Source: a virus
Length of the DNA stretch: 31,763 bases
Strand: one strand, 5' to 3'
IMG/VR virus record: IMGVR_UViG_3300015245_000244
Location: 1 to 31,763 of that record
Each line of letters starts with the position of its first letter. Within the stretch, counting starts at the first letter, position 1. The notes beneath the pieces were generated by a model that did not search any database, had not been told where the DNA came from, and saw only the letters and a list, made by a program, of their open reading frames with translations. Below are positions 12,813-30,246 of the stretch, piece after piece. Made by a program: the position numbers and the translations under genes.

Positions 12813-13085
12813 CTAGAGTTTCGGGCGCGTTCGCCGCACGCACCGCAGACTCTTCTCGTACTCCACCGCGAACTGCGTGAATGTGATTCCCAGGGGCGGG
12901 AACAGCTTGTACAGAGTCTCCAGGCTCGGGCTGTGGTGGCCCCGCTCCAGTTGACCCATGTACCCCCGGTCAATGTCGCTCTCCAGGGCTAATCGTTCTT
13001 GCGCGATGCCTGCGCTCTTCCGCAATTTCCTCAGACAGATGGTGAACGCGCTTCGCAGGTGAGCGCGATCCGGCGATGTTTTCAT
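12813..13085 (-). CDS. XRE-family helix-turn-helix regulator
   Basis: A 90-residue protein, the only convincing leftward gene here. Residues about 12-66 are an XRE/Cro-type DNA-binding domain: FTICLRKLRKSAGIAQERLALESDIDRGYMGQLERGHHSPSLETLYKLFPPLGIT. The recognition-helix region (IDRGYMGQLERGHHSPSL) is typical. ATG at 13085 is preferred over a start at 13124 because the extra residues do not look like a domain; the Shine-Dalgarno is weak in either case. There is no C-terminal peptidase domain, so it is not a LexA/CI-type autocleaving repressor. Position between tail and early operon, opposite in direction, suggests a lysogeny or early-gene regulator acting on the adjacent operator-like repeats; this is inference. 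Confidence 0.82.
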   Translation of the reverse strand: MKTSPDRAHLRSAFTICLRKLRKSAGIAQERLALESDIDRGYMGQLERGHHSPSLETLYKLFPPLGITFTQFAVEYEKSLRCVRRTRPKL

Positions 13086-13242: not shown

Positions 13243-13279
13243 CCGAAGGGTGTTCGAGGGCCACGTGGCCCGCCTTCGG
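13243..13279. repeat. Nested inverted repeats around a perfect 14-bp palindrome
   Basis: CCGAAGG (13243-13249) and CCTTCGG (13273-13279) form an outer inverted repeat. Inside lies the perfect palindrome GGGCCACGTGGCCC (13258-13271). There is no T-tract, so it is not a standard terminator. It could be an operator or a structured origin element. Confidence 0.75.
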
Positions 13280-13286
13280 TAACCTG

Positions 13287-13363
13287 CCGCCACCGATCTG
13301 GCACCGTACTTACACTGTGTCACCACATTATTAACACGCAACTAACACCGAGTTGACACGGAA
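13287..13363. repeat. Seven 11-bp units, each with CAC at the same position (iteron/operator-like)
   Basis: CAC occurs at 13291, 13302, 13313, 13324, 13335, 13346 and 13357, exactly one helical turn apart. The last three units are TTAACACGCAA, CTAACACCGAG and TTGACACGGAA. The period is not a multiple of three, so codon structure does not explain it. The last unit contains a -35-like TTGACA. Confidence 0.8.
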
Positions 13364-13381
13364 ACGGTGGCAAACTATTGG
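13353..13381 (+). promoter_or_regulatory. Possible sigma70-like promoter overlapping the repeat array
   Basis: TTGACA (13353-13358), 17-base spacer, TATTGG (13376-13381). The -10 is imperfect. It overlaps the last 11-bp unit, so a protein bound to the array could block or recruit polymerase. Confidence 0.4.
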
Positions 13382-13399: not shown

Positions 13400-13429
13400 T
13401 TGACAACTCCCGGCAACTGGGTTTATATT
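13400..13429 (+). promoter_or_regulatory. Strong sigma70-like early promoter
   Basis: TTGACA (13400-13405) and TATATT (13424-13429) with an 18-base spacer (or TTATAT at 17). It points rightward, about 100 bases before the first gene of the long rightward operon, and is the best consensus promoter seen in the window. Confidence 0.7.
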
Positions 13430-13526: not shown

Positions 13527-13799
13527 ATGCATCAGGCAGTACCGGCAGTCAGTGACGATTACTTCGCTCGGGTAAACACCCGCGTAACACGTATCGCATT
13601 CCGCCGCTTGCAGTGGGCCTGTGAGCAGCGCGAACGCCTGGAGGCATCGCGCGTACCCCAGGGCAAAATTCTGGTCGAACTGATGATGGCTCACCTGGAG
13701 CCTCACCCGGACGAGAACGGCACCGCAGCCGCCGCCAGAAGGAAGGGCCCGAGGTCCGAGAAGAAGCGCAGCGCCAAGACCAGCACCACCACAGCGTAG
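13527..13799 (+). CDS. Small basic protein, first gene of early operon
   Basis: A 90-residue protein, not recognised with confidence. Residues 14-57 (FARVNTRVTRIAFRRLQWACEQRERLEASRVPQGKILVELMMAHLEP) have the size and pattern of a ribbon-helix-helix or short helical DNA-binding domain. The C-terminus is Lys/Arg/Ser/Thr-rich (RRKGPRSEKKRSAKTSTTTA), typical of nucleic-acid contact. GGGGAGGAG precedes the ATG. It is the first gene behind the strong promoter, a place often used for a regulator. DNA-binding is inference. Confidence 0.65.
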   Translation: MHQAVPAVSDDYFARVNTRVTRIAFRRLQWACEQRERLEASRVPQGKILVELMMAHLEPHPDENGTAAAARRKGPRSEKKRSAKTSTTTA

Positions 13800-13806
13800 G
13801 GGTTTT

Positions 13807-14025
13807 ATGGCGGCGGCACTCGCAATCATCTTCGAGCAGGAGCAGACACAAGCCCGAGCCGATGAGCGCCGCTATCGCTGCGACCTATGTCACACCGCGA
13901 ACGGAGTGCAGTTTGCCGATACCTACTGGGCCTGCCCGCAGTGCGCAGAGCGCATCTTTCTGCGGCTGCGGTGGGAGCAGTGGACGACTTCCGCAGGATT
14001 CAGCATCAGGAGGAAGAAACGATGA
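13807..14025 (+). CDS. Small zinc-ribbon protein
   Basis: A 72-residue protein with two CxxC pairs: CDLC (about residues 25-28) and CPQC (about 43-46). They are spaced as in a zinc ribbon (RYRCDLCHTANGVQFADTYWACPQCAERI). The rest is helical and ends in a basic tail (SIRRKKR). Its stop overlaps the start of the HNH gene. Function is unknown; small zinc ribbons are common in phage early operons. Confidence 0.7.
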   Translation: MAAALAIIFEQEQTQARADERRYRCDLCHTANGVQFADTYWACPQCAERIFLRLRWEQWTTSAGFSIRRKKR

Positions 14026-14558
14026 TTGATCCGAAGGTACGCAGGCTCGGTATGCAGAATCGCCATGAGAGTCGGGGTCCGCTGACTGTAATCTTCCTTC
14101 GACGGAAAGCGGGCCCCGATCTCGAATGTCTAATAGACACGGCTGACCTTCAGGCCGTCCAATCGGTCGGCGCAACTTGGTATGCCGCATGGGATCGAAA
14201 GGCCAAGAAGCACTATGTCAAGAGCACGCTACCGGGATCGCGGAGACAGGTCTTTCTGCATCGCATATTGCTCGACCCACCAGTAGGCAGTGAGGTGGAC
14301 CATCGAAATCACAACGGCCTGGATAATCGCCGATCCGAACTCCGAATAGTGACGCGTTCGCGAAATGCTTTCAATGCAAAGCGAAGGTACGCATCTCGAA
14401 GCGGAGTTCGAGGCGTAATTTGGAATGCTCGGGACAACCGATGGGTCGTCAAAATCGTTCATGACAAAGTGCGGCGGCGATTTGGAAGCTATGCAGACCT
14501 TAATCTCGCGAAAACTGCGGCGGCCAAAGTTTATGCGGAGTTGGAGGCAGAGGCATGA
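14022..14558 (+). CDS. HNH endonuclease with AP2-type DNA-binding domain
   Basis: A 178-residue homing-type endonuclease. The ATG at 14022 is preceded by AGGAGGAAG. Residues about 77-115 are the HNH core: LHRILLDPPVGSEVDHRNHNGLDNRRSELRIVT, with His80, Asp93-His94, Asn102 and the NRRSELR segment. Residues about 127-177 form an AP2-like three-strand plus helix domain (SGVRGVIWNARDNRWVVKI, then RRRFGSYADLNLAKTAAAKVYAELE). HNH-AP2 proteins are freestanding mobile endonucleases that insert between phage genes. The gene overlaps both neighbours by four bases, and its DNA is less GC-rich than the flanking operon, in line with recent arrival. Catalytic residues look intact. Confidence 0.9.
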   Translation: MIDPKVRRLGMQNRHESRGPLTVIFLRRKAGPDLECLIDTADLQAVQSVGATWYAAWDRKAKKHYVKSTLPGSRRQVFLHRILLDPPVGSEVDHRNHNGLDNRRSELRIVTRSRNAFNAKRRYASRSGVRGVIWNARDNRWVVKIVHDKVRRRFGSYADLNLAKTAAAKVYAELEAEA

Positions 14559-15532
14559 TAAATCCGGAACTGAGACGGCAGGGCATAAGTTCCACGGATA
14601 TCGGCGCAATATTCGGCCTGGACCCGTGGCGCGATGCCTTCTCTGTATGGGCCGCGAAAAAAGGCCAGTTGCCGCCTGTAATAGCAACGCCCAGAATGCG
14701 TCTTGGCAAATTTCTCGAACAGGGCATCATGGCTTTTTATGGAGATCTGACAGGGCGGTCTCCAGAATGGTGCGACGAAACACTTCAACATCCGGAGCAC
14801 CCTTGGATGGTCTGCACGCCAGACGCCTTGATTCCCCGAGAACGGCGCGGAGTAGACGCGAAACTCGTCTTTTGGGATCAACGCCGCAAGTGGGGCCACA
14901 ATCCCGATGAGATCCCTGAATCCATCCAACTCCAAATGTGGTGGATGATGGCAGTGCTCAATTACGACCTCTGGGATGTGGTGGCGCTCATCGGCGAGGA
15001 CTTACCCCGCATCTACACCATCGAGCGCGACCGCGAGGTAGAGCGCGTGATGCTGGCGCGGGTGGAGGAGTGGTACCGGCGCTACCTGATCGGCGATGAG
15101 CGGCCCCCGATAGGCAGCAGCGACGACGCCGCGCGATGGCTTCAGCAGGTCTACCCGAATCACAAGCGGCCCGACCTGCGTTGGGCCACGGATGGAGAAG
15201 TCGCGCTGCTCAACGAGTACGTGCAATTGCGCGTGGTCCAGAAGGAATTGAGCGCACGCCGGAACCTCCTGGAGACGGCCTTCAAGGAGGCCATTCAGGG
15301 CCGCGAGGGCCTGGAGTGGAACGAGGGCGCGTTCACGTGGCGCAAGTCGAAAGACAGCGAAGTGACCAACTGGGAGGCCCTGGCGATAGCGCTGCTCTAC
15401 CACCACATCAAAGACCCCGAGGCCCGCGCCACGCTGCTGGCCGAGTACACGCGCACCAAGATCGGAACGCGGCGCATCCGCATCAGCCATGACGACCTGC
15501 GCGATGCTGCCGCTGACAAGGAGGCCGCATGA
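14555..15532 (+). CDS. YqaJ-type viral recombinase exonuclease
   Basis: A 325-residue protein of the YqaJ/lambda-exonuclease-like (PD-(D/E)XK) group, which resects double-strand DNA ends for phage recombination. The start has the YqaJ signature RRQGISSTDIGAIFGLDPWRDAFSVWAAKKGQ (residues 7-38), then RMRLGKFLEQGIMAFYGDLTG. The catalytic area is MVCTPDALIPRERRGVDAKLVFWDQRRKWG, with the Asp and Asp-x-Lys. IPESIQLQMWWMMAVLNYDLWDVVALIG follows, which is the typical helix after the active site. The C-terminal about 110 residues are a charged helical extension. The first about 350 bases are less GC-rich than the rest, as is the HNH gene just before. The following annealing-type protein would be its partner. 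Confidence 0.85.
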   Translation: MINPELRRQGISSTDIGAIFGLDPWRDAFSVWAAKKGQLPPVIATPRMRLGKFLEQGIMAFYGDLTGRSPEWCDETLQHPEHPWMVCTPDALIPRERRGVDAKLVFWDQRRKWGHNPDEIPESIQLQMWWMMAVLNYDLWDVVALIGEDLPRIYTIERDREVERVMLARVEEWYRRYLIGDERPPIGSSDDAARWLQQVYPNHKRPDLRWATDGEVALLNEYVQLRVVQKELSARRNLLETAFKEAIQGREGLEWNEGAFTWRKSKDSEVTNWEALAIALLYHHIKDPEARATLLAEYTRTKIGTRRIRISHDDLRDAAADKEAA

Positions 15533-26620: not shown

Positions 26621-26798
26621 TATATCCAGTGGCGAGATTCAACACATTACGGGTGGTAAACAGGTGTACATTTGGTGGTGTTACTTAGTAGTATCTCGGA
26701 ATGGCCGGGCTCGGCAGGCCGGTTTTCGTTGGTAGGGCCTCTTGTGGCAAACCGCCTTGTCTCGCACCCGGCATTCTCGAAGGAGAAAAGCCGAAACA

Positions 26799-27329
26799 AT
26801 GAAACATTCAGAAGAAACGACAACCTACGCTCAGATGGGCATGGCTGCGCTCCTGCCTGGAATGCAGTACATGCTCGAACGGATGCAGCACCAGCTTGAT
26901 GAGTTCCGAAGTCAACTGGCTGTATTGCAGACTCCAGTCGTGAGCACCAACGGCAACGCGCCACGCATCACCAAGAACGGCAAGCGCATCGGTCGGCCAC
27001 GGAAGGAAGTAGCGCCTGTCTTGCGCAGCGGCTGGCCAGCCGACCCCGAGGAGCGCAAAGCCGAAATGAAACGCCGGATGCAGGTCCGCAAGCAACGACG
27101 GGCAAACTCACCACGTGCAGACTCCTCGGCACCCGCACCTACACACCCGCGTGATGCGAACCATCCCGATCATGAGGCATGGGTCAAGAAAATACGAAAG
27201 GCCAACAAGCGGGCCTGGAACGGTCTCAACCCCGAACAGCGCAAGGCGCGGATCGCGGCGTCGCTGGAAGGATGCCGCAAGAAAGCCGAAAGCAGGATTC
27301 CTACTGCGCGGCTGGCGGTGGCCTCATGA
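26799..27329 (+). CDS. Basic coiled-coil protein with AT-hook-like motif
   Basis: A 176-residue protein. ATG at 26799 follows GAAGGAG. The N-terminal helix (MAALLPGMQYMLERMQHQLDEFRSQLAVLQ) is a likely coiled coil. NGKRIGRPRKEVAP (about residues 60-73) has the GRPRK core of an AT-hook. Two helical segments follow (DPEERKAEMKRRMQVRKQRR; HEAWVKKIRKANKRAWNGLNPEQRKARIAASLEGCRKKAE), strongly basic. The general plan resembles H-NS-like or nucleoid-associated phage proteins, but I cannot name the family. It lies behind a 178-base gap that contains no other gene. Confidence 0.65.
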   Translation: MKHSEETTTYAQMGMAALLPGMQYMLERMQHQLDEFRSQLAVLQTPVVSTNGNAPRITKNGKRIGRPRKEVAPVLRSGWPADPEERKAEMKRRMQVRKQRRANSPRADSSAPAPTHPRDANHPDHEAWVKKIRKANKRAWNGLNPEQRKARIAASLEGCRKKAESRIPTARLAVAS

Positions 27330-29727: not shown

Positions 29728-29749
29728 TTACGCAAACTGTGTTAAACTG
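29728..29749 (+). promoter_or_regulatory. 22-bp box, copy 2, upstream of histone-like gene
   Basis: Starts TTACGCAAACT and contains TGTTAA; matches the box at 22351-22372 at 20 of 22 positions. It ends six bases before the next ATG (29755 against 29749), like the first copy, so its placement is conserved as well as its sequence. Confidence 0.6.
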
Positions 29750-29754
29750 AGTTT

Positions 29755-30246
29755 ATGGAAAACAACACAGCAGTAACCAAGAAGAAGACGACAACGAAGA
29801 AGGCAGTCAAGAAGGCCGCGAAGAAGACCGCCGCGAAGGACGGCGTTATCGCGGATGAATTGAAGGCAAAGGTTGCGGAACTGAAGGCGAAAGCCACCAA
29901 GAAGACCGCCGCGAAGAAGGCCCCGGCCTCCAAGAAGAAGGCCACCCAGAAGCAGGCCGAAGCCGCGCTGAAGGTTCGCCTGTACGCCAAGGGCGAGTTC
30001 TACTTCGGCAAGCTGGCCGCATCCCGCATCGGTGACCTGCCCTACATGACCCTGGAGGCAAAGGGCAAGACCGTTACCCTGGTGCCCACCAAGAGCGAGA
30101 AGGACGCGCACAAGCTCATGGCCTGCCACGCCAGCCCGGTGCTCCGGGTGGCGAAGGTCCTGGAGGAGATCGGCTGGAACGGCCAGACTCAGGACCTGGA
30201 CGTGAAGCCGGTCGGTGAAACGGGCTTCCAGTTCGACATCGCATAG
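29755..30246 (+). CDS. Histone H1-like nucleoid protein
   Basis: A 163-residue protein with a Lys/Ala/Thr tail, residues 1-70 (KKKTTTKKAVKKAAKKTAAK, later TKKTAAKKAPASKKKATQKQ). It resembles bacterial histone H1-like proteins and would neutralise DNA charge. The C-terminal about 90 residues form a compact, differently composed domain (LKVRLYAKGEFYFGKLAASRIGDLPYMTLEAKGKTVTLVPTKSEKDAHKLMACHASPVLRVAKVLEEIGWNGQTQDLDVKPVGETGFQFDIA), which I do not recognise and which may be the specific part. It is intact and preceded by the 22-bp box. A role in DNA packaging, or in silencing or protecting phage DNA, is likely but inferred. Confidence 0.72.
   Translation: MENNTAVTKKKTTTKKAVKKAAKKTAAKDGVIADELKAKVAELKAKATKKTAAKKAPASKKKATQKQAEAALKVRLYAKGEFYFGKLAASRIGDLPYMTLEAKGKTVTLVPTKSEKDAHKLMACHASPVLRVAKVLEEIGWNGQTQDLDVKPVGETGFQFDIA

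Follow-up and report, generated by a model that had tools for sequence, protein, structure and literature searches.

The seven CAC triplets that recur at exact 11-bp steps in the window (the whole stretch of DNA analyzed here, a 31.8-kb IMG/VR record) probably belong to a cooperative operator for the ribbon-helix-helix (RHH)-like protein encoded at 13527 to 13799, which would most plausibly act as a repressor of its own early operon. The window derives from a temperate siphovirus-like phage that carries tail genes, a YqaJ exonuclease, a serine integrase and a replication-initiation-like protein. An 11-bp periodicity was detected by a self-similarity test upstream of a matching TTGACA-type promoter in 13 of the 13 phages compared, and in every one of them a homologue of the RHH-like gene lies directly downstream of the array and promoter. 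The sequence of the repeated core differs among these phages, so that the phase of the array is conserved while its cores vary.

The array and the early promoter

The features of the window on which the analysis draws are listed below, with the basis of each in brackets.

12813 to 13085, minus strand: XRE (HTH_3) regulator, divergent neighbor of the array (PF01381, E 4e-10).
13287 to 13363, plus strand: array composed of seven units of 11 bp, in which CAC occupies positions 5 to 7 (direct reading and run search); units 1 to 4, in order, are CCGCCACCGAT, CTGGCACCGTA, CTTACACTGTG and TCACCACATTA, and units 5 to 7, in order, are TTAACACGCAA, CTAACACCGAG and TTGACACGGAA.
13363 to 13373, minus strand: inverted unit TTGCCACCGTT, with GTGGCAA, closing the array on the promoter side (held-out PWM match).
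13400 to 13429, plus strand: early promoter TTGACA-18-TATATT (consensus scan, sigma-70-like, 11 of 12 matches).
13527 to 13799, plus strand: predicted RHH-like protein of 90 aa, first gene of the early operon (homologues, AF2, hhalign).
13807 to 14025, plus strand: zinc-ribbon-like small protein with a CxxC...CxxC pattern, second gene of the conserved module (weak zinc-ribbon matches).
14555 to 15532, plus strand: YqaJ-type exonuclease, used as bait for relatives (PF09588, E 1.7e-19; alignment search).

Direct reading placed CAC at 13291, 13302, 13313, 13324, 13335, 13346 and 13357, which agrees with the seven positions given in an earlier note on this DNA; all seven fall at exact 11-bp steps over a span of 13291 to 13359, and the flanking 11-bp positions, 13280 and 13368, are not CAC. 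The TnACAC flanks that had been described for the triplets hold in four of the seven units. The array had also been placed in non-coding DNA beside an XRE regulator and strong promoters, and it does lie in a non-coding, 440-bp gap between the XRE gene (minus strand) and ORF 13527 (plus strand), with one promoter rather than several: the sequence at 13400 to 13429 is the sole strong promoter match, and the array ends about 40 bp upstream of it (43 bp from the −35 element).

When equal-triplet runs were enumerated across the window (all triplets, periods 4 to 40), the longest was a single 7-run, the CAC array, followed by two 5-runs. Dinucleotide shuffles (n = 40) contained 0.325 5-runs and 0.025 6-runs each, with one 6-run and zero 7-runs in total, and extrapolation from these shuffles gives p ~1e-3 or less for the CAC 7-run in a single window when all triplets and periods are considered. 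Self-similarity over the 110 bp that precede the −35 element gave a z-score of 4.1 at lag 11 and 3.1 at lag 22. Outside CAC the units are unlike one another, and none of them matches the DnaA-box consensus TTWTNCACA.

The inverted unit, which is absent from the earlier note, ranked 6 of about 63,500 positions when the window was scanned with a weight matrix built from its seven direct units. In the relative L276, the corresponding inverted unit, TTGCCACCAAT, is found at an equal offset and ranked 1 in its 11-kb locus in a weight-matrix scan. In both arrays, the last direct unit and the inverted unit form a symmetric pair, TTGaCAC-N7-GTGgCAA, that faces the promoter.

On the other side of the array, about 15 bp to its left, a perfect 14-bp palindrome, GGGCCACGTGGCCC, occupies 13258 to 13271 and is contained within a larger imperfect hairpin, CCGAAGG...CCTTCGG.

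Conservation of the 11-bp phase in related phages

A nucleotide-level search of the window against a phage collection yielded zero matches, and homologue searches with ORF 13527, a tail protein or the XRE protein singly retrieved no kin. The bare pattern (six CAC triplets at 11 bp) was present in at least 120 IMG/VR stretches, which included mini-satellites, DnaA-like boxes and others, and DnaA boxes account for some of these other 11-bp CAC arrays; as the matches are this heterogeneous, an 11-bp CAC pattern alone is not diagnostic of a family. A more selective scan for four TNRCAC units retrieved L161, the kinship of which was recognized via its XRE protein and the exonuclease of which is 39% identical to that of the window. 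In L161, five GGCAC-type units immediately precede the promoter that serves the gene in the position of ORF 13527. Because L161 had been found by its array pattern, and this ascertainment had to be removed, a search by exonuclease alignment, independent of the array, was chosen; it returned 13 loci, including L161 and L274 again and one duplicate (L275/L276). The records of the relatives all derive from metagenomes and could be fragments.

Periodicity was measured as the self-similarity, for all lags between 4 and 30, of the 110 bp that precede each −35 element. For ten distinct phages, the combined z-score was 12.8 at lag 11 and 8.4 at lag 22, with values of at most 0.7 at other lags, and random windows from the same records reached a z-score of at most 2.2. 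Lag 11 or its double, 22, ranked first in 11 of 13 sequences, and lag 11 itself was first or second in 12 of 13 (second in L279, third in L277). In the eight distinct phages that were found via the exonuclease or the XRE protein and not via the array (L276, L278, L280, L282, L283, L284, L285 and L287), the combined z-score at lag 11 was about 9.9. In addition, a phased-unit search of consecutive 11-mers gave a z-score of at least 3 in 11 of 13 phages, with L280 and L281 weak (z 0.5).

The arrangement around the promoter is likewise recurrent. In L276, which was found by its exonuclease (51% identical), the equivalent place is occupied by a run of nine CACs, each exactly 11 bp from the next, and this array ends 43 bp from the −35 element, as it does in the window. 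A promoter of the type TTGAC[AGT]...TA occupies the equivalent place in all 12 other sequences compared, near consensus with 9 to 11 of 12 matches. In most phages the array ends 15 to 37 bp upstream of the −35 element and does not lie over the promoter; units were also found just downstream of the −10 element in L282 and L279, and one unit lies in the promoter spacer of L278 and L279. The cores are CAC in the window, L276 and L161, GCCAG in L283, GTGACTTC in L282, GCGACT and GTGACT in both orientations in L277 to L279, TTGnTGA in L285 and A[AG]TC in L274. The earlier note had named a lack of conserved phase or CAC in homologous regions, together with a lack of protein binding, as refuting its reading, and the scan of relatives found the 11-bp phase kept throughout. 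As the phase is conserved in all relatives, the sequence comparison strongly supports its proposal of a phased array for cooperative binding of a regulator near the early promoter.

More distant proteobacterial prophages, with exonucleases 26 to 33% identical, showed no 11-bp excess in the 3 kb upstream, which indicates that, as far as seen, the array is confined to the clade of the window. One member of this distant set, L145 (z 5.0), was considered as an array and dropped; it looks like a short local repeat.

An RHH-like protein encoded directly downstream

ORF 13527, which is preceded by an RBS-like GGAGGAG, is the only regulator-like gene common to all 13 phages, and in several relatives a similar small CxxC ORF lies between it and the exonuclease. 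Its product is likely an RHH-like protein of a previously unrecognized family, as judged from alignment and structure prediction. The aligned homologues share the pattern [RK]-[VLI]-[TN]-x-x-[VIL]-[TS], followed by a helix of about 18 residues, the pattern [VI]PxG[KR]I..EL...HL and a basic tail. With an 11-sequence alignment, AF2 predicted an extended segment at residues 11 to 21 and helices at 22 to 39 and 45 to 56, corresponding to RHH topology; the strand of an RHH protein would form only in the dimer. An AF2 model from the single sequence, which gave one long helix, was superseded by this alignment-based model. Comparison with CopG by hhalign placed the strand in the correct register (KRVTVTLT against KRLTITLS) with a pairwise E of 5e-4 and a probability of 31%. 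The ORF was not recognized as RHH in Pfam, PHROGs or PDB sequence searches, and the best Foldseek match in the PDB, the RHH regulator Reg576, was non-significant (E = 4). Because the sequence searches were negative and the Foldseek matches non-significant, the assignment is held to be likely and not proven.

The predicted recognition strand offers a further comparison with the array. It reads RVNTRVT in both the window and L276, each with a CAC core, and RLNLQM, with Asn at the middle position, in L161, where the core is also CAC. In the ten other phages Thr replaces this Asn, and the cores are different or carry CAC on the opposite strand, as AGTCAC in some of the Thr-type phages. This link between strand and core comes from a small and related sample, with three Asn-type phages only, two of them close relatives, and a strict code in which Asn in the strand equals CAC was toned down in view of the opposite-strand CAC in Thr-type phages. 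The pattern fits a divergence of the RHH-like protein and its array together. We consider it an even call whether these phages represent an undescribed clade of temperate phages with a fast-diverging RHH regulator and a multi-unit operator that keeps only its 11-bp phase and promoter-proximal placement, while the core changes with the predicted strand.

Alternative readings of the array

The earlier note had pointed to two proteins as possible binders, the XRE regulator and the replication-initiation-like protein, and did not mention ORF 13527 in this role. Nothing was found tying the replication-initiation-like protein to the array. A role of the array as lysogenic operator for the divergent XRE (HTH_3) repressor is unlikely on comparative grounds. 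Eight of the 13 phages do have an XRE gene to the left of the array, but in one of these, L161, an AraC-type regulator (HTH_18; 1059 to 2156 of that record, minus strand) parts it from the array. No HTH_3 domain was present in the records of L277, L278, L279 and L283 (22 to 51 kb, which may be fragments), which nonetheless have the array, the promoter and the RHH-like gene; HTH_3 was also absent from the very short L287 record. The core does not follow similarity of the XRE protein either: identity to the window is 64% in L276 and 55% in L161, both with CAC, and 53% in L274, which has no CAC array.

It is quite improbable that the RHH-like protein and its array serve mainly in segregation or replication, as a parC- or iteron-like locus, with promoter control secondary. 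An 11-bp unit array upstream of an RHH-like gene does match the layout of an RHH adaptor with a direct-repeat centromere, as ParR proteins are RHH and the ParR of plasmid R1 requires at least two 11-bp direct repeats (PMC9426499), and direct-repeat arrays are typical upstream of par operons (PMC5016525). In the type II partition system of R1, 11-bp direct repeats lie at the promoter of the operon of a small autoregulating RHH protein (PMC9426499, PMC5016525), but the ten repeats of R1 flank the promoter in two blocks, whereas the phage arrays are mostly upstream. Furthermore, a Pfam scan of window proteins revealed neither an actin-like, ParM-like ATPase nor a ParA-like one, the phage has a serine integrase, and the operon and its neighbors are recombination genes, not the segregation genes of a par operon.

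Activation rather than repression of the early promoter by the RHH-like protein is very unlikely. In most phages the whole array is upstream of the −35 element, a typical activator position, but its distance from that element is variable (15 to 37 bp). The promoters are near consensus in all relatives, which makes restraint more likely than activation, and in L278, L279 and L282 units occur within the promoter or beyond it, as would be expected of a repressor.

Still less probable is a reading in which the array binds a host winged-helix regulator of the OmpR/PhoB type, which would link early transcription to the physiology of the host. Regulators of this class use direct repeat units of 11 nt, as in the PHO box and GlnR box of actinobacteria, and half of the window array reads TTAACA-N5-CTAACA-N5-TTGACA. 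However, related phages have strongly different cores, yet in each of them the array adjoins an RHH-like gene of the phage itself, as would be fitting for a binder that the phage encodes. Among those window proteins that were scanned, none was a regulator of this type, and the promoters are strong already. Sites of this type, considered for their 11-bp unit, were set aside for lack of support. Finally, chance or recent tandem-repeat slippage without function can be dismissed: 11-bp CAC does occur in many unrelated mini-satellite-like arrays of IMG/VR, but the units here differ outside CAC, the run is far above the shuffles, and the phase conserved across relatives with diverged cores refutes it.

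Proposed mechanism and related systems

In the preferred reading, an operator bound by the RHH-like protein, the fold, binding, cooperativity and repression that we infer would combine as follows. Dimers of the protein would insert their beta-ribbon into the major groove, with one dimer per 11-bp unit; as 11 bp is about one helical turn, the dimers would be aligned on one face of the DNA and could bind cooperatively. Binding might nucleate at the symmetric pair at the promoter-proximal end or on the array itself, and the bound protein would then spread toward the promoter at 13400 to 13429 and repress it, resulting in autoregulation of the RHH, zinc-ribbon and exonuclease operon. Where an XRE gene sits opposite, its leftward transcription may also be controlled. 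RHH proteins have been described to bind distal high-affinity sites and then to oligomerize toward the promoter (PMC5569661), and this spreading, together with the binding of ParR to 11-bp repeats (PMC9426499), provides precedent for the proposed behavior.

The viral RHH proteins SvtR, AvtR and F55 of archaeal viruses resemble the proposed system in being small, in acting on their own promoters and in the cooperative binding of multiple dimers (PMC5569661). The operators of these proteins and of Arc and Mnt have one or two sites, often inverted, whereas the phage arrays have about 4 to 9 phased units, and none of these proteins has detectable sequence similarity to the RHH-like protein. Arc and Mnt, from phage P22, are small virus-encoded RHH proteins that act on their own promoters with several dimers bound cooperatively. 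The heptad arrays of Omega have a 7-bp period, as against 11 in the phage arrays, and Omega is a plasmid partition and copy-control regulator. Omega (pSM19035) is similar to the proposed system as an RHH protein on long arrays, with short direct and inverted units that overlap promoters (PMC5016525).

With this reading, an odd sequence pattern becomes a regulatory switch that can be put to the test, in a so far uncharted group of phages, and an orphan gene family unrecognized by current databases gains a likely role. The roughly ten related protein/operator pairs, with equal geometry and different cores, would be useful for the study of how RHH specificity changes and how cross-regulation is avoided. 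If core and strand do change together, nature would have supplied a series of matched proteins and operators with spacing, not sequence, as the invariant. In addition, 11-bp periodicity can expose operators after sequence conservation is lost.

Other unit matches and 11-bp CAC arrays

Elsewhere in the window, three more CACs at 11-bp steps were observed at 26653 to 26677 (minus strand), between the end of the replication-initiation-like gene (26620) and a gene that starts near 26799. As chance would yield about 0.4 such triples, this is no more than a candidate second site. At 29735 (minus strand), the sequence TTAACACAGTT matches the array unit strongly; it lies just upstream of a gene at 29755 to 30246 (plus strand) for a 163-aa protein whose lysine/alanine-rich N-terminal half resembles a histone H1-like tail.

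Among other IMG/VR records, L207, L162, L011, L117 and L018 contain 4 to 6 11-bp CAC units beside genes that look like late regulators of the ArpU/RinA type, some of them near terminase-like genes, and these may be binding arrays for late activators of Firmicutes phages. In the unrelated phages L228 (at 4152) and L009 (at 1624), 11-bp CAC arrays directly adjoin small XRE-like genes.
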